From Lachnospiraceae bacterium (lineage in GTDB: Bacteria; Bacillota; Clostridia; Lachnospirales; Lachnospiraceae), in contig JAAUZL010000023.1 in NCBI GenBank assembly GCA_014804615.1, forward strand, positions 200,668 through 264,667: a stretch of DNA of 64,000 bases, given 5' to 3'. Positions 16,445 to 47,190 of this stretch are shown piece by piece. Numbering within the stretch: the first letter of the stretch is position 1; the number at the start of each line of letters is the position of its first letter. The notes beneath the pieces are model-generated. The model did not search any database, had not been told where the DNA came from, and was given only the letters and a program-made list of their open reading frames with translations. The translations under genes were made by a program, and so were the position numbers.

Positions 16445-17728
16445 TCAGTCTCTGCGAGACTGACTGCGATGACCGCCGCTGCGCTTCTCTTTATTCAGCC
16501 CACCGGTCATGTGTGATACATTGCTTTTCAAAAAGCTGGCACGGAAAACCGCATCCTCCCCATACTTTCCACGAAGCTGGTCTACCGCCCTGTCAAGCTT
16601 TTCCAGCTTGTCGTTCTTTTCCAAATCAAAAATGCTGTACTGACGCGCGGCATGCTCCTGCACCTTGGATGTGTGGACGCCAATCTGCCGGATGGGAGTC
16701 TTCTTATCCCACAGTCGGCTCAGTATCTGACAGGACGCCTCATAGATTTCCTCCGTGATGTTGGTGGGTGAGTCTAACTGCATTTGCTTATTCATGCGCT
16801 TGAACTCACAAGTAGTCAGATGTACGCTGACCAGGCTGACCATTACATGATCAGCCCGGAGCCTTGCTCCCACCGTCTCACTTAAAGAGAGAAGTAAATG
16901 TCTTGCATACTCCTCCGTCACGATATCCACCGGAGCCGTCAGGCTGTTGCTGTAGCCCTTATTCTCCTCATGGGAGACCATGCCCGGGTCGAGATCACAT
17001 CCCCTCGCATAGCCCTGAATGGTCTGCCCGTGCTTTTTCAGATGGGCGTTGATCATTCCCTCGTCTGCCTTTGCCAGTTCCCCTATCGTCTGTATCCCCA
17101 GCCGGTGCAGCTTCTCCACTGTTGACCTGCCACAGAGAAACAGATCAGAAACGGGAAGCGGCCACATTTTCTTCTCAATCTCTTCCGGAAAAAGGGTGTG
17201 TACCTTATCCGGCTTAGAGAAATCTCCCGCCGTCTTGGACAACAGAAAGTTCGTAGACACGCCGACGTTTACGGTAAAACCAAGTTCCTCTCTGATCCTG
17301 TCCTTTAACTCATAAGCCAGGTTTATCATTTGGTCACATCCATACAGCTTTTCAAAACCTTCAAACACGATCCATGCTTCGTCGATGCTGTACTGAATCA
17401 CGTTGTCGCTGTATTCCTTCAATATTTTCATAAAAGCTCTGGACGAGGCGACATACAGGCCATTGTCCGGCGGCACGATCACCAGACCCGGACATTTTCT
17501 CTGTGCCGCCACGATAGGCTCTCCTGTCTGAATGCCGTATTTCTTGGCCGGCGTGCTCTTGGCAAGAACAACGCCGTGGCGCTTTTCCTGATCGCCGCCC
17601 ACAATACTGGGAATCTCTCTGAGATCCTCTTTCTCCCCCAGCACATTGACCCGGTAGGCGGCAGTCCAGGAAAGAAAGGCGCTGTTGACATCGATATGAA
17701 AGACATATTTCCCCACTGTTTCTTTCAT
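16445..17728 (-). CDS. dinB: DNA polymerase IV-type Y-family polymerase
   Basis: About 427 residues of error-prone translesion polymerase. The palm shows FHIDVNSAFLSW (first metal-binding Asp) and YSIDEAWIVFEG (catalytic SIDE). Finger and thumb parts follow, with LGFTVNVGVSTNFLLSKTAGDFSKPD, and the little-finger domain runs to a basic tail. Family members of this clostridial branch also carry the VNSAF variant. The ATG at 17728 has GGGGAGGGG 8 bases upstream and is preferred to 17755. A LexA-type box lies 43 bases upstream, so it should be SOS-induced. A second, broken copy sits at 43.2-44.4 kb. Confidence 0.93.
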   Translation of the reverse strand: MKETVGKYVFHIDVNSAFLSWTAAYRVNVLGEKEDLREIPSIVGGDQEKRHGVVLAKSTPAKKYGIQTGEPIVAAQRKCPGLVIVPPDNGLYVASSRAFMKILKEYSDNVIQYSIDEAWIVFEGFEKLYGCDQMINLAYELKDRIREELGFTVNVGVSTNFLLSKTAGDFSKPDKVHTLFPEEIEKKMWPLPVSDLFLCGRSTVEKLHRLGIQTIGELAKADEGMINAHLKKHGQTIQGYARGCDLDPGMVSHEENKGYSNSLTAPVDIVTEEYARHLLLSLSETVGARLRADHVMVSLVSVHLTTCEFKRMNKQMQLDSPTNITEEIYEASCQILSRLWDKKTPIRQIGVHTSKVQEHAARQYSIFDLEKNDKLEKLDRAVDQLRGKYGEDAVFRASFLKSNVSHMTGGLNKEKRSGGHRSQSRRD

Positions 17729-17770
17729 TTCCGGCACCCCTCCCCATTGATGCATGTAACATTATATTAA

Positions 17771-28735: not shown

Positions 28736-29124
28736 TATATATCCTCCAGGAACTTTCGCAGTTCATCCGCCTCATCACTGGTGATCTTCTCTCCTCCGTT
28801 TAATGCTACCATGAACTGATTCAGAGAACCGTCAAAGTAAGAATCCAAAAGATGCCTCGCCCTTCTCTGTTCATACTGCTGCCTGTTGAGCGCCGCTCGA
28901 TAATAACGCTTTCCCTGAAATTTCCTCTCCCCATTATACCGTACAGATACGACGCCCTTCTGTTCCATCTTGGACAGAAAGGTATACAACGTCTGTTTCT
29001 TCCATCCCTTATCCGAATTTTCACCAAACTGCAGGAAGATATCCTTGTAGGAATACTCCTTATCTTCCTTCCACATCCACTCCAATATCTCTTTCTCGGA
29101 TGCGGTAAGTATTATTTCATCCAT
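28735..29124 (-). CDS. BlaI/MecI-family repressor
   Basis: 129 residues, winged helix of the Penicillinase_R family: LTASEKEILEWMWKEDKEYSYKDIFLQF, then KKQTLYTFLSKMEQKGVVSVRYNGERKFQGKRYYRAAL, and a helical dimer/cleavage domain. AGGAGG lies before the ATG. As first gene it should repress its own operon (BlaR1 and five ABC genes) from an operator at the promoter just upstream. Confidence 0.93.
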   Translation of the reverse strand: MDEIILTASEKEILEWMWKEDKEYSYKDIFLQFGENSDKGWKKQTLYTFLSKMEQKGVVSVRYNGERKFQGKRYYRAALNRQQYEQRRARHLLDSYFDGSLNQFMVALNGGEKITSDEADELRKFLEDI

Positions 29125-29180: not shown

Positions 29181-29926
29181 CAAAGAATGCCCGTTCCACT
29201 TTTCCAAATGTTCCTATAAAAATTTCTTAAACCAGAAGATTGTTTGTGAACAACGATTTCAAATTCAGAAAAATTCCTATTCATTCAAGACAGATCTGCT
29301 TTAGATATGTAAAAGTATTCAACCCGCTTTGTACTGAGATAAAGCGGTTATATGCCCTTCCCCCTATTGATGCGCAATATTTCTGATATTTTTATAGGAA
29401 TGTTCCTATAATATTGGTAATCAGAAATCTCGTTTTATCAGAAATTCAAAGTGAAACCGTTGCAAGTCAAAGAAGCTACCGCAATAGTTTTCTGATAAAA
29501 AAGTGACCATTGACTGTCCATGCCTTATAACTATAAGACTGGCAGGGATAAAAATTTCTGATAAAAATATGCTCATAGTAATTCGGCTACTGTCTGTTTT
29601 CAAAACATCAATTCTAATGAAGAATTAGCTGTTTAGGAGCATTGTCATAGATTCATACCGTTATCTGTAAAAAAACAGTTTATCATGGCATGAAGTAATT
29701 GTTTGTGAACTTCTCAGCAAGCAATTTAACGCTCATTTTTATCGGAAATTATTATGTGAGCGGAGTATACTGTTCTGGTTCAAAATATAGGTAAATCTAT
29801 ATTTTTATCAGAAACTTTTTCTGCTTTTAACCAGTGTTTTCAATGCTTTCAAAAATCATTTCTGATAAAACTATATTTCTGATAACCGATTTTATCAGAA
29901 ATTTCCGATAAAATTGGCAAGCAATC
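29181..29926. repeat. AT-rich non-coding stretch with about ten copies of a 12-bp motif in both orientations
   Basis: The motif TTTTATCAGAAA or its complement TTTCTGATAAAA, exact or with one or two changes, is seen near 29380, 29418, 29433, 29488, 29555, 29737, 29812, 29869, 29876 and 29890, plus a variant at 29903. Spacing is irregular and orientation alternates, so it is not a CRISPR. Separate copies of a TTCCTATAA element occur near 29210 and 29393-29410. No ORF with a ribosome site is present. It may be a protein-binding field (iteron-like) or a degenerate mobile-element end. Confidence 0.7.
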
Positions 29927-29957
29927 GATGGGGATATCCTTTTCGGATATCCCCATC
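29927..29957. other. Perfect 13-bp stem hairpin
   Basis: GATGGGGATATCC and its complement around a 5-base loop. Without a T-run it is not a normal terminator. Just after it, at about 29997-30011, TTGGGGACACCCCAA forms a second small hairpin in an unusually GC-rich 120-base segment. The layout recalls mobilisation or origin regions, but no relaxase gene is nearby. Confidence 0.55.
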
Positions 29958-30141
29958 ACCGCTTCACCGCCACAGGCGTCTCGCTTTGCTTGTTGGGGAC
30001 ACCCCAAGCCCCGGTGAAATCCGCTTCGCGCATTTCCCGAACACGCCTTAACTTGATAAGCCTGCCATACAATAATGCACTCACGGCATTAAATTCTAGG
30101 TACACACAACTATCAAATCTTGAATCATAATCATTAGCCCT

Positions 30142-30864
30142 CTATGTATTAACCTCAACTTCATCCCATGAAGTATTTCCCATTATCCATTCAAATGCGT
30201 GATGTCTCCATAGGGATATTACTTCAATATATCTTTTTTCTTTATCACTTAAATTGGCAAACATACCATTCTTTAATACAAAATCTTTCTCGTTAATATT
30301 TATGTATGGAATTTGTGAAAGTATATTCAAATATTGCTTACCAAATGTATTTTCAACTATACTACCAATACTTTCTTCCGTAAAAATCGGGTTATATGCT
30401 TCCCGTGTTCTCCAATGCCATAGCATGGCTATCTCTGTTTGTAATTCAATCTCCTTTTTTTCTCTAAGCTTACATTGCTCCTCTACTTTTTCATAAGAAT
30501 GCCTTATTCCGATTTGCAATATTGGATGAAAATCTTCCAAAACAAATTGCTCATAATCAGATAATCTGTTTACTAATCCTAAAGACCATAAACATGGTTC
30601 AACTGCTTCATATTGAACTTGATAGCGTAAAAGATCATTTTTATTTCCCTTTCCTATGCTTTTGTCAAATAAATACCTTTCCTCCCGTGTTGCATATTGC
30701 ATATAGCCTACATTATCTAGCCAATTTCTTATGGCTTCTCTTTGTTTTTCTCTTTCACTTATAGAATACCGCTTACCTTCAATTATCTTTTCTTCCAACG
30801 CACACCTATCCGATAAGCATACAAGAATAATTGCCCTCACCATAATTTCTTTTATACTTTTCAT
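30142..30864 (-). CDS. DUF4272-like protein
   Basis: About 240 residues from the ATG at 30864 (AAGGAG 10 bases upstream). The pattern REAIRNWLDNVGYMQYATREERYLFDKSIG, YQVQYEAVEPCLWSLGLVNRLSDYEQ and REAYNPIFTEESIG matches the DUF4272 family as I know it. The C-terminal part carries EKRYIEVISLWRHHAFEWIMG. DUF4272 proteins are common in toxin-immunity neighbourhoods. It is the last gene of the immunity-type array; its role as an immunity protein is inferred from context. Confidence 0.65.
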   Translation of the reverse strand: MKSIKEIMVRAIILVCLSDRCALEEKIIEGKRYSISEREKQREAIRNWLDNVGYMQYATREERYLFDKSIGKGNKNDLLRYQVQYEAVEPCLWSLGLVNRLSDYEQFVLEDFHPILQIGIRHSYEKVEEQCKLREKKEIELQTEIAMLWHWRTREAYNPIFTEESIGSIVENTFGKQYLNILSQIPYININEKDFVLKNGMFANLSDKEKRYIEVISLWRHHAFEWIMGNTSWDEVEVNT

Positions 30865-30949
30865 TTCTTCAGTTCTCCTTACCAATACATTCCACATCTC
30901 TGATATATTCTTTTAGATTAATTTGTAATTTCTCCGCCATAAACTCTCT

Positions 30950-31369
30950 CTATACCGTTGCAAAATAAAGATCATCGAGACTAAAATGATTTATATTCAC
31001 AGCGTCCTCAGATGTATGCCAATATATTTCCGGTATTTCTTGCTTCAGTTTATCTACATCAATTGTCCATTCATCAGAGCAAAAATCTTCTGTCAATACC
31101 ACTTCATAATCACAAAGAAGATACTGAATATTTTGAAATCGGTATTTACTTCTAACAAACGCCAACCTTATCTTGCTGTTTATCATACATACCGTTCCAT
31201 CTGTTTGATTACTGAACCGCGCCCATTCTTCTCCCGCGCCATCATCCCAATCTATTTTCAGCGTTTTATCCGCTTCTTGAATTTGCGCCAGTGTTTCCTT
31301 AAATTCTTTTTGATCCGCAAATACCTTTTTATGTTTTGCTCGTCTCAGGACTTCTAACATATCTCTCAT
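30950..31369 (-). CDS. Small protein of the immunity-type array, family not recognised
   Basis: 139 residues, soluble, acidic. The middle has IDWDDGAGEEWARFSNQTDGTVCMINSKIRLAFVRSKYRFQNIQYLLCDYEVVLTEDF. An AAAGG site lies upstream of the ATG. Codon use is AT-rich like its neighbours. It is unlinked to any toxin here; immunity function is suggested only by company. Confidence 0.5.
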   Translation of the reverse strand: MRDMLEVLRRAKHKKVFADQKEFKETLAQIQEADKTLKIDWDDGAGEEWARFSNQTDGTVCMINSKIRLAFVRSKYRFQNIQYLLCDYEVVLTEDFCSDEWTIDVDKLKQEIPEIYWHTSEDAVNINHFSLDDLYFATV

Positions 31370-31445
31370 TTATAATGTACCTTTGATTATACAGGATGGA
31401 TTCTTTCCTGATCAAATTCTTGTAACTTTTATATGGACACGATCT

Positions 31446-31973
31446 CTATAGGGAACTTTGTTTTAATAAATAATGATTCCCTCCTGCCAACGGCTTAATA
31501 ATGACGCCCCTTTCGTAAGCATCTTTTGCACCTATAGTATACCAATGATGAGGATAATATCCACTACCCCCATTTCGATTTACGACATAAGCACCTTTCA
31601 ATAATCCCTTTTTAAATTGAGTAATCACTTTTTTCCAAAGAGGATCAATATTATCAATTGAAAGAGCTCCCATACAAGATTCAACTAACTCTGTTTCATC
31701 ATCTTTTCCTAATAGTATGATCAAATCACCTCTTTTCTCATTCAAATATTCGTTGTATTGTTCTCTGCTGCAAATATCTATCCAACTTTTACATACAATA
31801 ATTTCTCTAAAATTTTCATACTTCTCTCTATCAGAAAGAAATATTTCTTTTGCTTCATATTCTGGAAATATTGTTATCCCATATGCCTTCAGATTATATT
31901 GTTGAACAATATTTCTTAAAAAATTTACTATTTCATCTCTTTTTGCATGAAATTGCATATTTATCTGTCTCAT
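31446..31973 (-). CDS. Small protein of the immunity-type array, family not recognised
   Basis: 175 residues, start with a GAGG site 7 bases upstream. A helical N-terminus (FHAKRDEIVNFLRNIVQQYNL) leads to an alpha/beta middle (GITIFPEYEAKEIFLSD, GDLIILLGKDDETEL) and a Gly/Tyr-rich end (VVNRNGGSGYYPHHWYTIGAKDAYERGVIIKPLAGGNHYLL). No catalytic motif is recognised. Confidence 0.5.
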   Translation of the reverse strand: MRQINMQFHAKRDEIVNFLRNIVQQYNLKAYGITIFPEYEAKEIFLSDREKYENFREIIVCKSWIDICSREQYNEYLNEKRGDLIILLGKDDETELVESCMGALSIDNIDPLWKKVITQFKKGLLKGAYVVNRNGGSGYYPHHWYTIGAKDAYERGVIIKPLAGGNHYLLKQSSL

Positions 31974-31979
31974 AAACTA

Positions 31980-32240
31980 CCTCACTTATCATATCCAACA
32001 AAATACATGGGTAAATCAGCATCTTCTAAGTCATAGAAAGTTTCCACTTCTCTTCTTTTTGGAACTCCACCAGCCATCGCTCGCTCAAGGTTTATTCCAG
32101 AGAAAAACCGAACGCACTTAATTGAGCATTCCCTTTGCAGATTGTACATTCACTCATTTGCTTTTTGTCTCTCGTTTTTCTAAAACTAACTTACCTGCTC
32201 TAAGTAACTTGTCAGTTAAATCTATATCTTACGCCATGAT
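31980..32240 (-). pseudogene. Fragments of decayed small genes
   Basis: On the minus strand three partial readings follow one another: DIDLTDKLLRAGKLVLEKRETKSK and stop; an overlapping ATG frame MSECTICKG..., resembling the start of a YgiT-type zinc-finger antitoxin; then, in another frame, INLERAMAGGVPKRREVETFYDLEDADLPMYFVGYDK and stop. None has a complete frame. This looks like collapsed remains of toxin-antitoxin or immunity genes. Confidence 0.4.
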
Positions 32241-32253
32241 ACTGGTTCACCAG

Positions 32254-32622
32254 CTAATTGTCGTATTTATACTTCTCATACATATATTCAGTCCTGTCAT
32301 ATGCAGTTTCTACTACTGTCTTATCGGTTGTTGCCAAAATCCATTGTTTTGCTATAGTATAATGAAATCCCCATTTCTTCTCATAATACTCCAAAAATGA
32401 ATACGTCTTTTCCATTATATTATTTACATCAACCGCTTGCGACTCAATAAAACTTTGCCATTCATAAAAGATCGCCATATCCATAGGTTTCCCATTTCCC
32501 CATAATTCTGGACAGATAGCACTCAGAAACCACGGCAGATCATCTTCCTCAACGTCCTTATTTCTATAACAATGATCGTAGCATTGATCTAAAATATAGA
32601 AAAACATTAAGAACGATTGCAT
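32254..32622 (-). CDS. Small protein of the immunity-type array, family not recognised
   Basis: About 122 residues from the ATG at 32622 (AAAAGG 9 bases upstream, better than the ATG at 32631). All-helical and acidic (FYILDQCYDHCYRNKDVEEDDLPWFLSAICPELWGNGKPMDMAIFYEWQSFIE, EKTYSFLEYYEKKWGFHYTIAKQWILATTD). The helical, Asp/Trp-rich form resembles known immunity proteins, but no family is assigned. Confidence 0.5.
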   Translation of the reverse strand: MQSFLMFFYILDQCYDHCYRNKDVEEDDLPWFLSAICPELWGNGKPMDMAIFYEWQSFIESQAVDVNNIMEKTYSFLEYYEKKWGFHYTIAKQWILATTDKTVVETAYDRTEYMYEKYKYDN

Positions 32623-32721
32623 TATTTTCATCCTTTTCTCCTTTTTACATTTTTATAATCCGCTCTTCTTATCCTACCATTGCACTATCGAGGATCATTA
32701 TGCAGCCTCTTCTCTCCATGC

Positions 32722-33690
32722 TCATGGATGTTCAATATCACTGAAAAGTTCATCGAATGTGATACCTGTAACCGCATTGTCTATCGCCTCAAAATAATCA
32801 TGCAGCATCTCATCTCCGCTTTCTTTATCTATCTCCACATCCACATTTGTAAACTCCCCTACCGCGTCTATAATATATCGTTCTGAAGGATGGTATGAGG
32901 ACGGATACGCAAGTCGGAATTTCACCTCTTCAACCACATTGCCCTGCGGATCTATTTCCTGATAACCATATTGGATCGAATCGGCTGATCCTTTATATTC
33001 ATAATAAAATTTACCAGCACATAGAGGCCTGTATCTCATAAAACGATATCCATCTACATATACTTTCTTGCTATCCCTGTCATACTTGAATATACGCGGT
33101 CCCCCAAAACGGACATACGCCCCGCATGGATCTACGATCAATTCCGGGAATCCATCTCCATCAAAGTCAAGATAGCAATACACAAAGAACTCCTTTATCA
33201 TGGTAATATTATCCGTATTAAGTTTTTCCTTATCGGTATCGATATCTTCAAAATAGGTTTCCTCTCCATCTTCATATTGTACCGGTATCTGATTTAACAA
33301 GACCTGTAAAAAGACTTCTTTATATTCTCTATCCATCTCCTCCGTATATACTTCTGTATCGATCGGGTATTCCTTTATTGTGAAATCGACTTCCCGCAGT
33401 CTTTTACAAACCAGTTCGGAAATGATCTCTTCTGTAATTTCTTCCTGCGTCAATTCCGTTTCCTCTGTAACGGCTTCTGATTCGCTTTCGACGTATTCCG
33501 ACTCATTTTCCTCATCCTCTGAAATCATCGCTTCACTGTCAGATGCCTCGTTTGCTGTGATTTCATCAGCTTGTCCGGGATCCAGAGCCGTTTTTTCTCT
33601 TTCATACAAAAGCTTGCCTGACAACAAAAATATCCCACTCAAAAGAAGAATGATATACAATAATCTCTTTACAAATACTGTGTTCTTCAT
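32722..33690 (-). CDS. Membrane-anchored DxDGD-motif protein (paralogue A)
   Basis: 322 residues. One N-terminal helix (LLYIILLLSGIFLLSGKLL), a Glu/Ser-rich spacer to about residue 85, then a folded domain with a calcium-loop-like motif CYLDFDGDGFPELIVDP and aromatic strands (FFVYCYLD, KFYYEYKGSADSIQYGYQEID). No lipobox. The ribosome site is weak. It shares the plan and the GDGxPEL motif with the next three genes. Confidence 0.65.
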   Translation of the reverse strand: MKNTVFVKRLLYIILLLSGIFLLSGKLLYEREKTALDPGQADEITANEASDSEAMISEDEENESEYVESESEAVTEETELTQEEITEEIISELVCKRLREVDFTIKEYPIDTEVYTEEMDREYKEVFLQVLLNQIPVQYEDGEETYFEDIDTDKEKLNTDNITMIKEFFVYCYLDFDGDGFPELIVDPCGAYVRFGGPRIFKYDRDSKKVYVDGYRFMRYRPLCAGKFYYEYKGSADSIQYGYQEIDPQGNVVEEVKFRLAYPSSYHPSERYIIDAVGEFTNVDVEIDKESGDEMLHDYFEAIDNAVTGITFDELFSDIEHP

Positions 33691-33724
33691 ATGTTTTACT
33701 TTTTCAGACGGCTATCAATTTGTT

Positions 33725-35488
33725 TCAGTCAAATAACTCTGTATAGGTATATGTTACAGCATCAAGAGCTGCTTCCCTGTCTTTTATCGCCTCGTCATAA
33801 TCTTTTGTCAGTTCCTCAAACTGTTCTTCGGTAACCCTGAAAAAATATCCTTCATCTGCTTCAAAATAAATAGCCTGCTCAATCATATCATTTCTCAGCT
33901 CTATGTATTCCGGCAAGGATACCAGATATCCATATTCCTCTATGTCGTTTTGATAGCGTCTTCCCCCTTCTACCTTAAAAAATATAGAATAGACATAATC
34001 ACCATTTTCATCTAAACGAATCATTCCCTCTCCTAACCATCCCCCGAATGCCAGCTTCTGGGTTCCCATTAAAGATATAGTGCTGGATATATACTCTTTC
34101 CACAATACAATTTGATCCTGCTCTTCATTGTACTGAAAAGCATAAACAAACCTTGCCTTATTCGTGACACACAACTCGGGATCTTCATCTCCATTGATAT
34201 CAAAAAAGTAATAACAATACTTACCGGCATCATATTCCCCGGGTTCAAAATCCATCCGGAATTCTGCCATCTCATAAATATACTGTTCTTCTCCTGTCTC
34301 CTTAATGTGGACGGTTCTTTCCCCGTCCATAAACTCTTTAAACTTTTCCTTGTACAGACCATATTTCGTAACATCGCCCGGATCAAAGGAAGCGGTAAAG
34401 TCAATGCTTTCATAGATTTCCTTTATTTCAGCATACAGTTTTTCATCAACATAATCTACTGCGTCCGAAGCAGTTGTATCATACTCCCCAAACAGCTCCT
34501 GATATGTATATCTTTCCTCCTGCATTCTATCTCCTGCCTGTTCGAGCTCTTCCTTATATGGCTTTGCCAGTTCCTCAAATTGTTCGTCGGTTATTCTGAA
34601 AAACCATTGCCCACTGCTTTCCTCAAAAACGCCCTGCTCCTTCATCTCCTCTGTGATCTCCCATCTTTTTTCACTGTCAGCATAATTGGGGAACATCACC
34701 ATGTTAATATCATAACGACAAAGGTCTGCGTACTCTGCCCAGAGCAGGGTGTTTAGTTCAAAGTCTCCTTCCTGATCCAGCTGAAAAAATTCATATATAT
34801 CGATAGCATAGTCCGGATTCCACACGGCTTTTCGTGTTCCGACTATTTCCTTTCCATTAAGCCATGTCCACAGTATACATTGGTCCATATCAGGATCGTA
34901 TGCATAGACACAATAATCTACACACAATTCTGGTAAGCCGTCTCCGTTCATGTCAAAAAAATAATAGCCGTAATGAGAGGATTTGAAATCATCCAGCACA
35001 TACCATCCCTTAGAATCATACCAGTCTTTTATATATACTTCTTTGCCTGTTTCCCTGTCCAGAAAAGGAACTTCATTTTTTATCAGCCCATAGAATTTCT
35101 GTTTACATTTTTCATATACCTCCGGGTTCCCTTTTTCAAATTCAGCAGAATACTCCACCCCCTCATAGGCTTCCCGGATCAATGCAAAGGTTTCATCATC
35201 CACAAAAGGAACCTCTTCTGGCTCATAATACATCCACATATGACCCACCAAAGTATGATCATATAGAATCTCTTCTTTTTCCCTTGCAGATTCCTCCTGT
35301 TCAATCGCTGCTTCTGATTCGATATTCGCCGCCTCTTCTGCCTGTAATGCCATTTCTTCTGATGGCTCCTCATCCTGTAAAGCTATTTCCTCTGAAAGCC
35401 TTTTCTGCTCATTCTTCACAGACAGCAGGATGGTACATACGATCAGGCATATCATCAATAAAGCGAATCCGTATTTCTTTATCCTCAT
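33725..35488 (-). CDS. Membrane-anchored DxDGD-motif protein with internal duplication (paralogue B)
   Basis: About 587 residues from the ATG at 35488, which has GAAGG upstream. N-terminal helix RIKKYGFALLMICLIVCTILLSV, a Glu/Ala-rich spacer, then two copies of one domain: the first with GYYFFDMNGDGLPELCVD and FRITDEQFEELAKPYKEE, the second with YYFFDINGDEDPELCVTN and FRVTEEQFEELTKDYDEA. The second copy has lost one Asp of the loop (GDEDPEL). The first 110 bases are almost identical to the start of paralogue C, as is the 40-base stretch before the ATG. Confidence 0.7.
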   Translation of the reverse strand: MRIKKYGFALLMICLIVCTILLSVKNEQKRLSEEIALQDEEPSEEMALQAEEAANIESEAAIEQEESAREKEEILYDHTLVGHMWMYYEPEEVPFVDDETFALIREAYEGVEYSAEFEKGNPEVYEKCKQKFYGLIKNEVPFLDRETGKEVYIKDWYDSKGWYVLDDFKSSHYGYYFFDMNGDGLPELCVDYCVYAYDPDMDQCILWTWLNGKEIVGTRKAVWNPDYAIDIYEFFQLDQEGDFELNTLLWAEYADLCRYDINMVMFPNYADSEKRWEITEEMKEQGVFEESSGQWFFRITDEQFEELAKPYKEELEQAGDRMQEERYTYQELFGEYDTTASDAVDYVDEKLYAEIKEIYESIDFTASFDPGDVTKYGLYKEKFKEFMDGERTVHIKETGEEQYIYEMAEFRMDFEPGEYDAGKYCYYFFDINGDEDPELCVTNKARFVYAFQYNEEQDQIVLWKEYISSTISLMGTQKLAFGGWLGEGMIRLDENGDYVYSIFFKVEGGRRYQNDIEEYGYLVSLPEYIELRNDMIEQAIYFEADEGYFFRVTEEQFEELTKDYDEAIKDREAALDAVTYTYTELFD

Positions 35489-35516
35489 ATTCTTCCTTCT
35501 CTTACTTATATGAGCC

Positions 35517-36956
35517 TTATTTAGCATTTTCCGCCAATAAGTCCCCAAAAACTTCTTCCAGTGTTTTTCGCTGGACAGCATGATTCTCTACCATCTCAAA
35601 AAAGGGCTTCGTGAGTTCATTCCATTCTTCTTCACTTACATCTACATAAGATACATCATAGATTGGAGCCTCACTTACCCCTATCTCATAGTAATGACGG
35701 TTCGGAGTTACTCCCTCATCTATCCGCAGGATATACTGAAAACTTCCGTCTTCCACCAAACCGATCAAATCATCCCGAACAGTATTCGCGTGCAGTCCAT
35801 CATGGCACCAGATCTGCCCTGTGCCGACTATTGATTCAAAATAGCAAGATTCTGTTTGATAAAGAATCCTGCATTCCCGTTGTTCCTCATCATATTTGAA
35901 CAGAAACATACACCCCTGATTGATCGCAAATTCCGGCTTGCCGTCTCCGTCCAGGTCATCATAATAATATAGATAAGGATATTCTCTCGTATCTTTTTCC
36001 TTTAATAGCTGTCCAAACTCTGTTCCCGCCTTCCACAAATCTTTGTAATACTTCACTTCCACTTGACCAATAGCCGGGATTTCATTTTTCAACACTTTCA
36101 GATATCCTTCCAGATAGGCCCGGTTTTCCTCCGGTGTGATATCCAGCCGTGGTTCTCTTGCAGTAAAGTCCATTGCTCTTACCATATCACATACGGGGAT
36201 TTCTTCCTCCTCTGTCTGGATTTCGCTATCACCCCAATATAATAATTCTGTTTTTTCAATGTAATGATAAGATTCACCTGAGTTGTAAGTGATAAGTAAT
36301 GTATCCTCATCCTTAAATTCTGCAGATACAACAGGCCATATAGCATCCGCAAAATCCAAGAAAAACTCCTGATAACAGTTTCCTTCATCAAACATATCTT
36401 TAATAATTAAGGGCCCTTCCCCATCTCTATTATAAGGCAGTAAGGCTACTCTATGATAATCTGCCGCTATGGGACTCTCATACTGCTCTGAAAATCTGTC
36501 ATTAGTGATATCATAATAAGTGCAATAGTTTACATAACTCCCAGCGTTAATCGATATCTCAATCGTTTCCTGATCAACATAAAATATCCCTGGATCACGA
36601 TAGCTCTCTCCTTTTTTCACTTCCTGTCCGTCTGTATTATAAATTGTATAAACATATTTCCATTCTTCTGCATCAATAATTTCAATGACTTTAAAATATT
36701 TATCATTTACTAATATTGTTTCTTCAATCGTTTCGTCTTCTTTGGCGCTTTCAGATCCCTCCGGTCCGATCATGGCATCCGCTTCGATAGTTACCGGCTC
36801 TTCTTCTGCCTGTATTGCCACTTCTTCTAATGGTTCCTCTTCCTGTAACGCCATTTTTTCTGAAAGCCTTTTCTGTTCATTCTTCACAGACAACAGGATG
36901 GTACATACGATCAGGCATATCATCAGTAGAACGAATCCGTATTTCTTTATCCTCAT
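35517..36956 (-). CDS. Membrane-anchored DxDGD-motif protein (paralogue C)
   Basis: About 479 residues from the ATG at 36956 with the same GAAGG site as paralogue B. N-terminal helix RIKKYGFVLLMICLIVCTILLSV, a Glu/Ala spacer, then a first domain (about residues 85-240) unlike the others (TILVNDKYFKVIEIIDAEEWKYVYTIYNTDGQEV) and a second with the loop YYYDDLDGDGKPEFAINQG. The C-terminus reads EVFGDLLAENAK. The same words occur as a fossil just upstream of this gene. Confidence 0.7.
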   Translation of the reverse strand: MRIKKYGFVLLMICLIVCTILLSVKNEQKRLSEKMALQEEEPLEEVAIQAEEEPVTIEADAMIGPEGSESAKEDETIEETILVNDKYFKVIEIIDAEEWKYVYTIYNTDGQEVKKGESYRDPGIFYVDQETIEISINAGSYVNYCTYYDITNDRFSEQYESPIAADYHRVALLPYNRDGEGPLIIKDMFDEGNCYQEFFLDFADAIWPVVSAEFKDEDTLLITYNSGESYHYIEKTELLYWGDSEIQTEEEEIPVCDMVRAMDFTAREPRLDITPEENRAYLEGYLKVLKNEIPAIGQVEVKYYKDLWKAGTEFGQLLKEKDTREYPYLYYYDDLDGDGKPEFAINQGCMFLFKYDEEQRECRILYQTESCYFESIVGTGQIWCHDGLHANTVRDDLIGLVEDGSFQYILRIDEGVTPNRHYYEIGVSEAPIYDVSYVDVSEEEWNELTKPFFEMVENHAVQRKTLEEVFGDLLAENAK

Positions 36957-36992
36957 ATTCTTCCTTCTCTTACCTATATGAGCCTTATTTAG

Positions 36993-37030
36993 CATTTTCT
37001 GCCATCAAGTCCCCGAAAACTATCATCTTC
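36993..37030 (-). pseudogene. Fossil C-terminus of a lost paralogue
   Basis: Immediately after the end of paralogue D, the minus strand reads VFGDLMAENAK and stop, followed by the same leader as before paralogue B. This matches the true C-terminus of paralogue C and marks a deletion between tandem copies. Confidence 0.65.
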
Positions 37031-37690
37031 TTACCTTTTGAATGTACAATACCTCGTCCATTCCGCCGCATTCCGCACTTCTTCATCACCAGTTACCGAA
37101 GTTCTCAGGTACTTTCGCGTCAGGGCATACCATTCCTCGTAGGTACATGTCTGTCCGTCAAACTCATATATATCTTTTTCCTGATATGTCCAGTAGTCCG
37201 TATCCCTGCTGACCCATGAAAATTTCACCTCATTTATAGGCTCACCTGTAGCATCTAACTCAAAATATTCATAGTACTCGCCATAATCCTCAAACCTGTC
37301 ATTCTCTTTGAATAAAAATGCTCCATTTTCCAGCGGATGATACTCACGCATATAGCTTTGAAAATATCCGAATTGATACATCTCTCCATCTTTCACAGAA
37401 AAAATCACATATTCGCTTCTTGCACCATATATATGTAATTCAGGGATTCCATCACTGTTCACATCTACCATAGTGTATTTTGTCTCAACCCTTCGCTCTG
37501 GTTCTCCCGTTGGCGTTGAAAGTGTCTTTATATCCCAGCCACTTGCCGTTCGCTCACCCTCTATAAATTCCTGATACATCTTGACTGCCTGATCCACCTT
37601 CTTTTGTTTTTGAACAAATAAAGATATGATTCCCAAAGATATGCAGGCGGTTAAAATTGCTATAACGGCAATTAGTTTTTTCTTATTCAT
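37031..37690 (-). CDS. Membrane-anchored DxDGD-motif protein (paralogue D)
   Basis: 219 residues from the ATG at 37690. N-terminal helix LIAVIAILTACISLGIISLFV, then a domain with TKYTMVDVNSDGIPELHIYGA, FSVKDGEMYQFGYF and YEFDGQTCTYEEWYAL. It ends in ...AEWTRYCTFKR right at a recombination junction (the neighbouring fossil), so its own C-terminus may be altered. Function is unknown. Confidence 0.65.
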   Translation of the reverse strand: MNKKKLIAVIAILTACISLGIISLFVQKQKKVDQAVKMYQEFIEGERTASGWDIKTLSTPTGEPERRVETKYTMVDVNSDGIPELHIYGARSEYVIFSVKDGEMYQFGYFQSYMREYHPLENGAFLFKENDRFEDYGEYYEYFELDATGEPINEVKFSWVSRDTDYWTYQEKDIYEFDGQTCTYEEWYALTRKYLRTSVTGDEEVRNAAEWTRYCTFKR

Positions 37691-37799
37691 CGTTAAATTT
37701 TCCACCATATAAATATACTCAAATTAATATGAGACCTGTAATTATAGAATATGCCTGTACTTAAATTCTACTATACTAACAATAAAATCTCCTTTAACT

Positions 37800-38231
37800 T
37801 CAGTTTAAGCCATACTTCAATAATGCATCGTAAAAATCCATTTCTAAATCTTGTAATTCATTTTCCTCATGTAAATATAATGCAACTGTATTTTGACATT
37901 TCCCACCTAATGTTTTAAATCCAATGAGGTCCCCTGTTTCCAAATCAATAATTGGCAAAAAAGCGCTTTCCAAAACCAACTCCTTTGCCACATTTTTCTT
38001 AATATAAAACATACCATTGTAATCACAAGAATACACTATAATATAACCAAAATATCCCCCTCCATATTGCTTTAGATATTCTTTATAGCTATCTGGCAAT
38101 TTAATATTATAATACTCCTCAACATCTTTTATCATCGTCATACTAGCCTTATTATCTGAATGAAGAGCCAATAATCTAGGTCTTTTTTCAACCATTTCTT
38201 TAACTTTATTATCAAAAATGTACTTGTCCAT
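37800..38231 (-). CDS. SMI1/KNR4 (SUKH) family immunity-type protein
   Basis: 143 residues from the ATG at 38231 (AGAAAG 5 bases upstream; a GTG at 38237 is an alternative). The SUKH pattern is clear: IKDVEEYYNIKLPDSYKEYLKQYGGGYFGYIIVYSCD, later LIGFKTLGGKCQNTVALYLH. SUKH proteins are the commonest immunity proteins of contact-dependent and other polymorphic toxins, and also serve other roles. No cognate toxin lies in the window. Confidence 0.8.
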   Translation of the reverse strand: MDKYIFDNKVKEMVEKRPRLLALHSDNKASMTMIKDVEEYYNIKLPDSYKEYLKQYGGGYFGYIIVYSCDYNGMFYIKKNVAKELVLESAFLPIIDLETGDLIGFKTLGGKCQNTVALYLHEENELQDLEMDFYDALLKYGLN

Positions 38232-38308
38232 ATGCACTTTCTCTGCGCAATATATTGTATCATTGATATTTATTAAATCTATTGCCCTGACTCTCTTTAG
38301 TAAAGTAC

Positions 38309-38764
38309 TTAAAAAATCGGCGGCTTATTAGACTTCTGAGATATTTCCTCAAAAAAACAGATGGGACTCTGACAAAATTTATTTGCATTTGATTTTTTTA
38401 TTACTTCTACTATCTCATCAATCTTAGGAGTATAAATTTTGTTCTCATAAAATATCATACCATCTATTTCTTGTGCATAACCTAATATCTTTTCCAGAAT
38501 TTTTTTTGATAGCGACCGCAAATCCAACCTACAATAAATTTCTATTAGAATTTCTTTTTCATACAAAAATTCGATACAGGTTTCATCGCTTTTTCCATAT
38601 TGAGATATTTTGGGGGACCAACTTTTTTGTTTTTCTAAAAAATCAATTTTCTCTATTGCTGCAGTTTGTTTGCCCCAAACTAATATTTCATCACTTTCCA
38701 AGCAAGCATTTGCAGTCACATTCTTCTTAGGTATTATGTAACAATCAAATTGCCATACTGCCAT
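38309..38764 (-). CDS. Small protein of the immunity-type array, family not recognised
   Basis: 151 residues from the ATG at 38764 with GGAGG upstream. Alpha/beta content: VWQFDCYIIPKKN, EILVWGKQTAAIEKIDFLEKQKSWSPKISQYG, DETCIEFLYEKEILIEIYCRLDLRSLSKKILEKILGYAQEIDGMIFYENKIYTP. The layout (Trp-Phe start, paired edge strands, ILEKILGYAQ helix) resembles immunity proteins but no family is assigned. Confidence 0.55.
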   Translation of the reverse strand: MAVWQFDCYIIPKKNVTANACLESDEILVWGKQTAAIEKIDFLEKQKSWSPKISQYGKSDETCIEFLYEKEILIEIYCRLDLRSLSKKILEKILGYAQEIDGMIFYENKIYTPKIDEIVEVIKKSNANKFCQSPICFFEEISQKSNKPPIF

Positions 38765-38894
38765 ATATGCCTCCACATCTTATGAATTAACTTTTGTCAA
38801 GAAATAAAATCTAAAACAACAAGCTAACAAATCTTCAATTTTTATCTCTCATGCCAAATCACAATTCTAATATTACTATTGTGATTTATCAAAA

Positions 38895-42582: not shown

Positions 42583-43179
42583 TCAAAACAAACTCATCTG
42601 CCGATACCCGTCCGCCTCACTCTTCTGCCTCTGCAGTTCCGCGAAGTGTACTTCCAACAGTTTCTCTGCCTCCGTTAATGAAAACAGCCAAGCTTCTCTC
42701 TCCTCTTTGTGCAGGATGAGCGGCATACGGTGGTGTATTCCGGTCATACACCCCTCCGCTTCTCTGGTGAGGATGGTGAAGCGGTCACCCTCTGGGTCTT
42801 TATGGTAGATTCCCGCCAGATACAGAATCTCTCCCGGCGCGGAAAACTCATACTTCTCCTTTTTCTTCTCCCCGATACGTTTCCACTCATAAAACTTCGA
42901 TGCCGGGATCAGGCAGCGGTGCGTCTCATAGTCATGGCGGAACATCGGCTTCTCCCCCACCGTCTCGCTCCTTGCGTTAAAGATCAGCGTATTCTTCCGC
43001 GCCGCCTCATAACCCCATTTTAGCACTTCCGCCACCATGCTGTCACTATCCGCCCGCAGGACAAGGGCTGGCTCCGATGGATGCACGTCCCCTGTTTTTG
43101 CATTCTTCTGATCTATCTTTCTGGCGATCTTTTCAATCTCCCGCGCCGTCTCGTCATCGATATAAAATCTTCCGCACAT
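42583..43179 (-). CDS. SRAP (HMCES/YedK) abasic-site protein
   Basis: 198 residues. The catalytic Cys2 (MCGRF), NARSET, the PASKFYEWKR motif with the active Glu, and GIHHRMPLIL with the active His are all present. These proteins crosslink to abasic sites in single-stranded DNA and protect them. Strong GGAAGG site. It lies downstream of a broken dinB with a LexA box, so the unit was probably an SOS-induced lesion-tolerance operon. Confidence 0.95.
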   Translation of the reverse strand: MCGRFYIDDETAREIEKIARKIDQKNAKTGDVHPSEPALVLRADSDSMVAEVLKWGYEAARKNTLIFNARSETVGEKPMFRHDYETHRCLIPASKFYEWKRIGEKKKEKYEFSAPGEILYLAGIYHKDPEGDRFTILTREAEGCMTGIHHRMPLILHKEEREAWLFSLTEAEKLLEVHFAELQRQKSEADGYRQMSLF

Positions 43180-43208: not shown

Positions 43209-44435
43209 TTACCGCCCTTTGACCTTTTCGTTTTCAACGTCTATTCCTAGTGTAACCCCACTTCTTCTCTCTTTATCCAGACCGCCGCTCATGTGGCCTA
43301 CGTTGCTCTTCAAAAAGCTGGCGCGAAAGACGGCATCCTCCCCATACTTTTCACGAAGCCGATCAACCGCCTTATCCAGTTTCTCCAGCTTGTCGCTCTT
43401 TTCCAGATCAAAAATGCTGTACTGTCTGGCGGCGTTCTCCTGTACCTTTGACGTATGGACGCCGATCTGCCGGATGGGCGTTTTCTTATCCCACAGCCGG
43501 CTCAGTATCAGACAGGCCGCCTCATAGATCTCCTCTGTGATATTGGTGGGGAGTCTAACTGCATCTGCTTATTCATGCGGCTAAATTCACAGGTTGTCAG
43601 ATGGACACTGACCAGACTGACCATCACATCGTCGGCCCGAAGCCTTGCCCCCACCGTCTCACTCAGAGAAAGAAGTAAGTGCTTCGCATACTCCTCCGTC
43701 ACGATATCCACCGGTGCCGTCAGACTGTTGCCGTAGCCCTTGTTGGCCTCATGGGCGATCATGCACTGATCAAGATCGCCGCCCCTGGCAAAGCCCTGAA
43801 TGGTCTGCCCGTGCTTTTTCAGATGGGCGCGTATCATGCCCTCATCTGCCTTTGCCAGTTCCCCTATCATCTGTATGCCCAGCCGGTGCAGCTTCTCCAC
43901 GGTTGAACGGCCACAAAAGAACAGATCGGAGACCGGGAGCGGCCACATTTTCTTCTCGACCTCCTCCGGGAACAGGGTGTGAACCTTATCCGGTTTGGAG
44001 AAATCTCCCGCCGTCTTAGAAAGCAGAAAGTTTGTGGACACGCCCACATTTACCGTAAAGCCGAGTTCCTCTCTGATCCTGTCTTTGATCTCATAAGCCA
44101 GCTTCACCATCTGCCCTCGTCCATACAGCTTTTCAAACCCGTCAAACACGACCCATGCCTCGTCAATGCTGTACTGGAGTACGGTGTCGCTGTACTCCTT
44201 CAGTATCTTGATAAAAGCTCTGGATGCCGTATTTCTTCGCCGGTGTACTCTTTGCAAGGACGATGCCGTGACGCTTTTCCTGATCACCGCCCACAATGCT
44301 CGGTATCTGCCTGAGATCCTCTTTCTCCCCTGACACCCCCACCCGGTAGGCTGCCGTCCATGAGAGGAAGGCGCTGTTGACATCGATATGGAAAACATAG
44401 GTCCCCACACTTACAGGAATTGGAAGATCCTCCAC
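43209..44435 (-). pseudogene. Second dinB-type polymerase gene, broken
   Basis: Homologous to the dinB at 16.4-17.7 kb over its full length (about 80-90% by eye), starting at VGTYVFHIDVNSAFLSW and ending GGLDKERRSGVTLGIDVENEKVKGR. Two lesions: about 75-80 bases are missing between KYGIQ and AFIKILKEYSD, which changes the frame, and one C is missing in the run coding DSPTNI (about 43550). The two frames still open are 44163-44435 and, after the first lesion, 43553 upward. The SIDE motif survives. Confidence 0.9.
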
Positions 44436-45807: not shown

Positions 45808-46874
45808 TCAAATCTGATTTAATTTCATAACCGCATCATGCTTATCTCTGTCAAAAATCCCGATATACACGTTATAGGTAAACGATACATCACTGTGTCC
45901 CAGCAGTTCCGATACGATCTTGATATCCGTCCCCATCGACAGGAGGATCGATCCATATCCATGCCGCAGGGAGTGGGGCGTATAATCTTTTGTCCGGCAC
46001 CGGGAATTATTCACGATCCTATCCATCGACCGCTCGATCTGTCGTCTGGTATAATGATTCCGGTTTTTTGCATTCACACATACAAAATCCTCTTCGTTCG
46101 TATAATACTGCCTGAAATAGAGGAGCGCTTCCAACGCCTTATCCGGCAGGACGATCTTGCGCCTGCTGTCTTTTGTCTTGGCTGCCTTGACTTTATAGCT
46201 GTAGGAAGCTCCCTCCTCTTTCTCTTCGCGGATCATGGCAAGGGACTGATTGATTGCAATCTCTCTCCGCTCTAAATCCACATCTTTCCATTGCAGCCCT
46301 ATCGCCTCAGACACCCGCATCCCCGTATACATGATGAGGGTGATCACATAGGCGGCATTCCCATACTTCTTCGCCCCGTTAGCGCAGGCGCTCATCGCCT
46401 CCTCATATATCAACTGGACTTCATCTGCCGAAGGGATCTTTATCTCCTTCTTCTTGACCGCTACATTTGCCTCCGATGGCGTTTTTACCGTCACTTCTAA
46501 GTACAAAGGCTCTATATCTTTCTTCGCCTCAGCATACCGGACGCAGGTTTTGATCAGCCCCCATACCTTCTTGATACTGTTCAGCGAATATCTCTTCGCA
46601 AGGGAATCGAGATAGTCCTGAAACATCTTGTCCCTTAGGTCTTTCAGCCGGACATTCGCCAGATCGTATGCCTTATAGTTGATCAGCCTTGCATTAACGG
46701 CGTCCAGATACGACTGATATGTCGTTGCTTCTATTCCTTAATCTTAGCTTTTACTTCCTTTTCTGTTCTCCCATAAAAATACCTTCCATCTGCATTGCGA
46801 TAAAAGAAATACTCATCTCCATGTATCTTCTTTTTACCCCATGTGCCTTCGCCATTTTTTCTTTTCCCTGCCAT
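45808..46874 (-). pseudogene. Tyrosine-recombinase integrase, broken in the N-terminal part
   Basis: From the ATG at 46874 (AGGAGG upstream) the frame gives the arm-binding domain (GEGTWGKKKIHGDEYFFYRNADGRYFYGRTEKEVKAKIKE) and then stops. In another frame YQSYLDAVNARLINYKAYDLANVRLKDLRDKMFQDYLD continues into the catalytic domain, with the conserved Arg (GMRVSEAIGLQW), HSLRHGYGSILLSMG, LLGHSDVSFTYNVY and the Tyr. About 30 residues of linker are missing at the break. The catalytic part alone (45808-46626) is open but lacks the N-terminal domains. It lies beside tRNA-Pro, the usual target arrangement. Confidence 0.85.
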
Positions 46875-47036: not shown

Positions 47037-47046
47037 TATTTTTCTA

Positions 47047-47119
47047 TCGGAGTGACAAGACTTGAACTTGCGGCCTCTACTTCCCTAAAGTAGCGCTCTA
47101 CCACCTGAGCCACACCCCG
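47047..47119 (-). tRNA. tRNA-Pro (anticodon AGG)
   Basis: 73 bases fold as a full cloverleaf on the minus strand. The acceptor stem CGGGGTG/CACTCCG has one G-U pair, the D arm is GCTC/GAGC, the anticodon stem CTACT/AGTAG holds loop TTAGGGA, and the T arm is GCAAG TTCAAGT CTTGT. C1-G72 with A73 fits proline identity. CCA is not encoded. It is the likely integration site of the neighbouring island. Confidence 0.93.
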
Positions 47120-47190
47120 AAAAACCTTTACTATTATAACGAATTTCCCTACGAAATGCAAGACTTATTCACAAACTTTTTATAGCGTTC

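Follow-up and report, generated by a model that had tools for sequence, protein, structure and literature searches.

Recombinase in trio (RIT) elements are said to have been described by Van Houdt in 2009 and 2012 and by Ricker in 2013, and ordinary bacterial MITEs derive from IS elements with a DDE transposase. One search of RITs for binding sites gave nothing convincing apart from an inverted repeat of 28-29 bp and a palindrome overlapping it (PMC3414803), a table note lists the terminal repeats as 34 bp (PMC10214605), and RitA, RitB and RitC are described as simple recombinases without an arm-binding domain, with RitA having two core-binding domains (PMC8138268). GInts, SEs (PMC5385486, PMC10214605) and Tn554 likewise rely on several cooperating tyrosine recombinases and show site preference, with SEs also carrying a 6-bp flank, but they differ in encoding an additional protein (GinD, Srap, TnpC), and none was found in the 3.6-kb RITs considered here. 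The Tn916 and Tn1549 integrases are comparable in that core half-sites surround a 6-bp crossover region with accessory sites further in; the differences are the lack of an arm-binding domain in the Rit proteins (PMC8138268) and, in the ends dealt with below, core and inner sites that are nearly one sequence.

The locus at issue is a field of short motifs at 29380-29915 of a 64-kb window (the whole stretch of Lachnospiraceae DNA that was analysed), and comparison with full-length relatives makes it very probable that the field is a non-autonomous, gene-less miniature RIT element of ~500 bp. An earlier note had reported that a motif, TTTTATCAGAAA, is enriched there in both orientations in non-coding DNA, and the counts bear this out. 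Six exact copies, all within 29433-29901, two with one mismatch and one with two are present in the ~540-bp field, and the 10-base core, TTATCAGAAA, has 11 sites in both orientations when one mismatch is tolerated. For the window as a whole, 35 matches to TTTTATCAGAAA with up to two mismatches compare with 10.6 expected and with 18 in the highest of 100 shuffles. Equal frequency elsewhere, which the earlier note had named as the observation that would count against it, was not what a genome-wide count gave: the genome (3.63 Mb in 29 contigs) has 14 exact copies, and the eight beyond the field are all isolated singles. The spacing, which had been called irregular, is on the contrary exactly mirror-symmetric, with four site pairs symmetric to the base around 29651.5. 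In 200,000 trials of random placement of 11 sites, none reached four mirror pairs, the maximum being three. Folded on this centre, the sequence matches itself mainly at the motifs and little elsewhere.

That the field is neither a CRISPR nor a gene was correctly seen at the outset. Its sole listed ORF is a 60-aa TTG frame, no ORF longer than 60 aa is present within 29416-29885, and Rfam and tRNA scans gave no match in the field. Neither a phage collection searched with the field DNA nor viral contigs searched with the motif pattern yielded a match, and plasmid matches by BLASTN were to the adjacent oriT-like module only. Since BLASTN against 98 relatives returned just that module or the field itself, a pattern based on geometry was needed, and 84,980 genomes were scanned for one + and one - motif 34-60 bp apart. 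In addition to scattered matches, this led to gut Clostridia contigs with the motif pair at contig ends, some of them ~3.6 kb with a pair at both ends, as expected of a repeated mobile element. Archaeal matches in Altarchaeum (L028, L031, L035, L055) comprise the motif pair only, without arrays at both ends, and are treated as chance or unrelated.

The same arrays bound both ends of 3.6-5 kb elements of gut Clostridia that encode a recombinase trio. In L066, L049, L058 and L061 there are three overlapping tyrosine-recombinase genes (Pfam Phage_integrase) for products of ~411, 319 and 349 aa, with ritA, ritB and ritC adjacent and overlapping in the full-length relatives L066, L058 and L061 (the ORF lists split ritB of L049 and ritA of L061), and L061 has an additional 346-aa gene between ritA and the ritA-side array. 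With RitA as query, tblastn found trios of tyrosine recombinases encoded on proteobacterial and Rhodococcus plasmids. Over 172 bp the left end of the window element shares 79% identity with the ritA-side end of L061, and over 88 bp its right end shares 82% with the ritC-side end, so that both match RIT ends in the right order and orientation, and because its halves correspond in this way the window element is taken to be a RIT without its genes. The ritA-ritB-ritC trio of an autonomous RIT is absent from the window copy, which is the feature that separates it from its full relatives of ~3.6 kb with their overlapping trio, terminal inverted repeats and homologous ends. Given that several mobile elements have multi-site ends, and that several tyrosine recombinases are likewise at work in GInts and Tn554, derivation from another complex-ended element (Tn7-like, Tn554, GInt or SE) might be considered. 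It is, though, a very improbable origin: the full elements with homologous ends encode a trio of RIT sizes that is sequence-related to annotated trios in other phyla, and the 3.6-kb elements have neither a DDE transposase nor a fourth, ginD- or tnpC-like gene. Multiple short repeats in AT-rich DNA beside an oriT-like module would also be in keeping with an integrated plasmid, as the iterons of its replication origin or as its partition site, but mixed, mirror-symmetric orientation is unlike that of direct iterons, no rep gene is among the adjacent genes searched, and the same arrays are at the ends of recombinase-trio elements and of one cargo-only element, making this extremely improbable. 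Of the binding arrays suggested in the earlier note, the one for a recombination protein, as the ends of a RIT acted on by tyrosine recombinases, was the best of its suggestions, and the one for replication does not survive.

The element proper begins at ~29416, and the motif sites at 29380-29411 and 29892-29911 fall in the flanking palindromes. Its parts are given in the table.

Table. Parts of the miniature RIT element and its flanks (window coordinates), with occurrences of the adjacent module
Feature	Position	Strand	Basis or counterpart
Left flanking 20-bp palindrome TTATAGGAATGTTCCTATAA, half-site type TTATAGGAAA	29392..29411	.	Sequence; same half-site type as L066 RIT core
Left junction 6-bp spacer TATTGG, putative crossover region	29412..29417	.	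Junction comparison
Left core half-site TAATCAGAAA, left end of element	29418..29427	+	L034 homology begins at 29416
Left site 2, TTATCAGAAA, 17 bp inward of core	29435..29444	+	
Left site 3, inverted, 54 bp inward	29489..29498	-	
Left site 4, inverted, 66 bp inward	29555..29564	-	
Internal spacer without coding capacity; position of rit genes in full elements	29565..29738	.	
Right site 4, TTATCGGAAA, mirrors left site 4	29739..29748	+	
Right site 3, mirrors left site 3	29805..29814	+	
Right site 2, mirrors left site 2	29859..29868	-	
Right core half-site, TTATCAGAAA on minus strand; right end of element proper	29876..29885	-	
Right junction 6-bp spacer CCGATT, putative crossover region	29886..29891	.	
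Right flanking 20-bp palindrome TTATCAGAAATTTCCGATAA, motif-matched to element	29892..29911	.	Common to L034 copy; counterparts in L049, L051, L061, L067, L076, L094
oriT-like module: GCAAGCAAT, stem GATGGGGATATCC/GGATATCCCCATC (29927-29957), GCTTGTTGGGGACACCCCAAGCCCC	29917..30012	.	Similar module in Tn1549 beside vanR-B
Occurrences of module	window 29917-30012; L010, L011, L012, L014, L015, L018, L019; L023:4024-4121; G000:C24:398140-398238		

Read inward, a RIT end has a core half-site, 17 bp further in site 2, oriented like the core, then after another 53-57 bp site 3 and after another 65-67 bp site 4, both inverted, and the window array follows this 17 / 53-57 / 65-67 bp geometry, its two ends using the same motif. 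Among the Bacillota RITs examined there are six variants of the motif, TTATCAGAAA, TTATCGGAAA, TTATACCGAA, TTATCCCGAA, TTATCCCGAC and TTATCCACGG. Where their ends are present and correctly placed, 9-10 of the 10 columns are identical in the inner-site triple, against a maximum of 6-7 in mononucleotide shuffles; ends that did not score are truncated at contig borders, moved away by cargo genes, or wrongly placed because gene starts are approximate. In L058 and L061 the array is displaced, yet present, and L106, which is cut at one end, has a strict score of only 6 and carries TTATCCCGAA sites in its downstream flank. In several elements the core copy is one base off the inner copies (e.g. core TTATACCGAA with inner TTATCCCGAA). 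Motif type broadly follows similarity of the Rit proteins, the same motif mostly going with similar proteins: identity is 59-90% within the CAG/CGG motif group and 88-100% among L108, L110, L111 and L112, and L106, with a CCC motif, is an outlier with ~39% RitA identity to these four.

Outside the Bacillota, a strict scan for three inner sites missed the proteobacterial RITs, and a joint scan including the core site found the geometry in some. The core-17-site 2-55-site 3 arrangement is clear in two Bradyrhizobium RITs (score 129 versus a null maximum of 80-84). It also exceeds shuffles in Rhodococcus, Sinorhizobium and Sphingobium, but not in Paraburkholderia, where only the ritC end shows it. 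Among the eight proteobacterial and actinobacterial RITs scored, it is weak in Cupriavidus pHG1 and was not found in Mesorhizobium AR07, negatives that carry little weight as some gene starts are approximate. Compared with the 28-29 or 34 bp of described RIT ends, there are here four sites per end extending ~150 bp inward in a fixed geometry. The published short repeat is about as long as the core and site 2 together. No description of sites 3 and 4, of the constant spacing or of gene-less or cargo-only derivatives was found in PMC3414803, PMC10214605 and PMC8138268, and the novelty of the end structure is put forward provisionally.

On this reading, the window element retains both terminal arrays of a full RIT and has lost the intervening ritA-ritB-ritC. 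The sequence comparisons suggest that Rit proteins likely bind the motifs, though we know of no demonstration of this, each motif being a presumptive half-site for these tyrosine recombinases. The outermost copy at each end, together with the flanking half-site across the 6-bp spacer, would then be the core for strand exchange, and the three inner copies (17, then ~54, then ~66 bp) may act as accessory sites, keeping the recombinases together in a single complex that joins both ends. The array offers a concrete map for the question of how three recombinases cooperate, with eight sites in the element plus the flanking core partners, and with variants of the motif accompanying different Rit proteins. 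Mobilisation in trans would need an active RIT of the same motif class. The only RIT found in the genome's own assembly, at C11, has the motif TTATCCCGAA and not TTATCAGAAA, and its RitA is 34-36% identical to the matching class; no RIT with a matching motif was found in that assembly, so a trans-acting partner is absent there, and the window copy is probably stranded and not mobile in its own genome now. At 500 bp and without genes, the element is a convenient substrate for an assay of trans-mobilisation.

In its own genome the miniature is single copy. Being short and non-coding, with two inverted ends, and presumably mobilised in trans, it resembles MITEs, from which it differs in derivation from a tyrosine-recombinase element and in its multi-site ends. 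A 512-bp stretch in Bacterium 1XD42-54 (L034; also L043, L048) is 83% identical to window 29416-29925, with unrelated sequence on its left and a different hairpin module on its right. The complete miniature is thereby present at more than one genomic location, with different flanks, at two clearly different loci (the window, and L034 with its near-identical relatives), with a partial one in L107/L067; no exact empty site for the window insertion was found. Between window and L034 the ten motif sites are 94% identical and the remainder 80% (Fisher p = 0.0004). The position of the L034 copy, flanked by genes for a Crp-like regulator and a relaxase, is relevant to whether the field is instead an operator array for a transcription regulator. 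Just left of the field in the window, a BlaI/BlaR1-type operon starts at 29124 and runs leftward; it has genes for a BlaI-family repressor and an M56 (BlaR1-like) protein, and the field is upstream of both. However, the L034 copy is not beside blaI, arrays are at both ends of RITs whatever the neighbouring genes, and mirror symmetry over 500 bp would be left unexplained; there is very little likelihood of such an operator function, and the full RIT ends had already largely ruled it out.

Further searches with three-site patterns are in keeping with a miniature RIT, matches being found in 6 of 397 genomes of the family and 2 of 392 of the order, while a reversed control pattern had none in any of the 397 + 392 genomes. 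With the exception of G180, the matched places are RIT ends or the two miniatures. The exception (G180:C3, L138:1907-5820) is a 3.9-kb element with arrays at both ends and three unrelated ORFs, one of them DUF5104, but no rit genes; another array in G180 has next to it no more than the final codons of a decayed ritC. A clean empty site for this cargo element is unconfirmed, relatives of the interrupted gene aligning only to about the junction. Non-autonomous RITs thus occur both with and without cargo, and not in the window alone. The architecture can serve as an annotation signature with which to find the ends of RITs, RITs that carry cargo, and orphan elements next to conjugation origins.

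A further aspect is the company that these elements keep. On the ritC side of many there is a hairpin ending (A)TTGCTTGC or a close variant, then ~5-6 bp, a 20-bp palindrome that is usually built of the element's own half-site, 6 bp, and the element. Such hairpin-palindrome junctions are in the window, L034, L049 (at both ends), L051, L061, L067, L076, L094, L108, L111 and L115. The hairpin is part of a module with CTTGTTGGGGACACCCCAAGCCCC or similar at its end. Relatives have this module in conserved form, as does Tn1549 beside the vanB2 cluster, and changes in the stem compensate one another. The module is termed oriT-like because of its likeness to sequence upstream of mobC in Tn1549 and the relaxase or mobC genes close to it in L034, L049, L051 and L108. 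The earlier proposal that the field is the edge of a genomic island fails in that form, though the field does abut this oriT-like module, of the kind in Tn1549-type conjugative elements. In L107/L067 a RIT of another motif class is inserted exactly between module and miniature, the two being joined directly in L034, and its spacers, CCGTTT and CCCATG, differ on the two sides in a manner that may recall the coupling sequences of Tn916. A RIT preference for oriT-like hairpins is suggestive, in a sample chosen by motif. Chance neighbourhood would fit the location of several RITs (L058, L110) and the cargo-only L138, which do not adjoin the module, and a sample that was not designed to give a rate. 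Against it are the ~ten junctions, mostly on the ritC side, with the hairpin, few bp and palindrome in the same order, and the exact placement of the L107 RIT. That the hairpin is a chance neighbour and not a preferred insertion site is considered rather unlikely, and this bears on the insertion site, not on the identity of the element.

A broader proposal, tentative and on balance doubtful as a whole, is that RITs in at least three phyla share one fixed terminal architecture (core, +17, ~+55 inverted, ~+65 inverted, with TTATNNNGAA-type half-sites) as the platform for assembly of the three recombinases, that miniature and cargo-only derivatives use the same one, and that oriT-like hairpins of conjugative elements are docking sites for stacking units, of which the Tn1549 vanB2 edge may be one more product. 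In Tn1549 of pMG2200 (L023:4000-4135) the vanB2 cluster ends at the module, and 6 bp on is TATCGGGATG, which resembles a RIT half-site and may mark one more unit docked at this place. In a member of the same genus, L012:1588-1660 retains part of a RIT end (module, palindrome and GGTTATAGGAATAAAATTTTTATCGAAA), again at a module of this type.

The module also recurs beside varied genes in many relatives, with compensating stem changes and with no Tn1549-type relaxase nearby in the stretch read. In the window it is followed, at 30142-38776, by a run of small genes whose products include DUF4272 and SMI1/KNR4 (SUKH) proteins, a content like that of immunity gene clusters. Elsewhere in the 64 kb, there are two Y-family DNA polymerase genes (16445-17755 and 43508-44410), the second apparently truncated and near a SRAP gene (42583-43179), and a tyrosine integrase gene (45808-46626) is next to a tRNA-Pro gene (47046-47120), which is likely an island attachment site.
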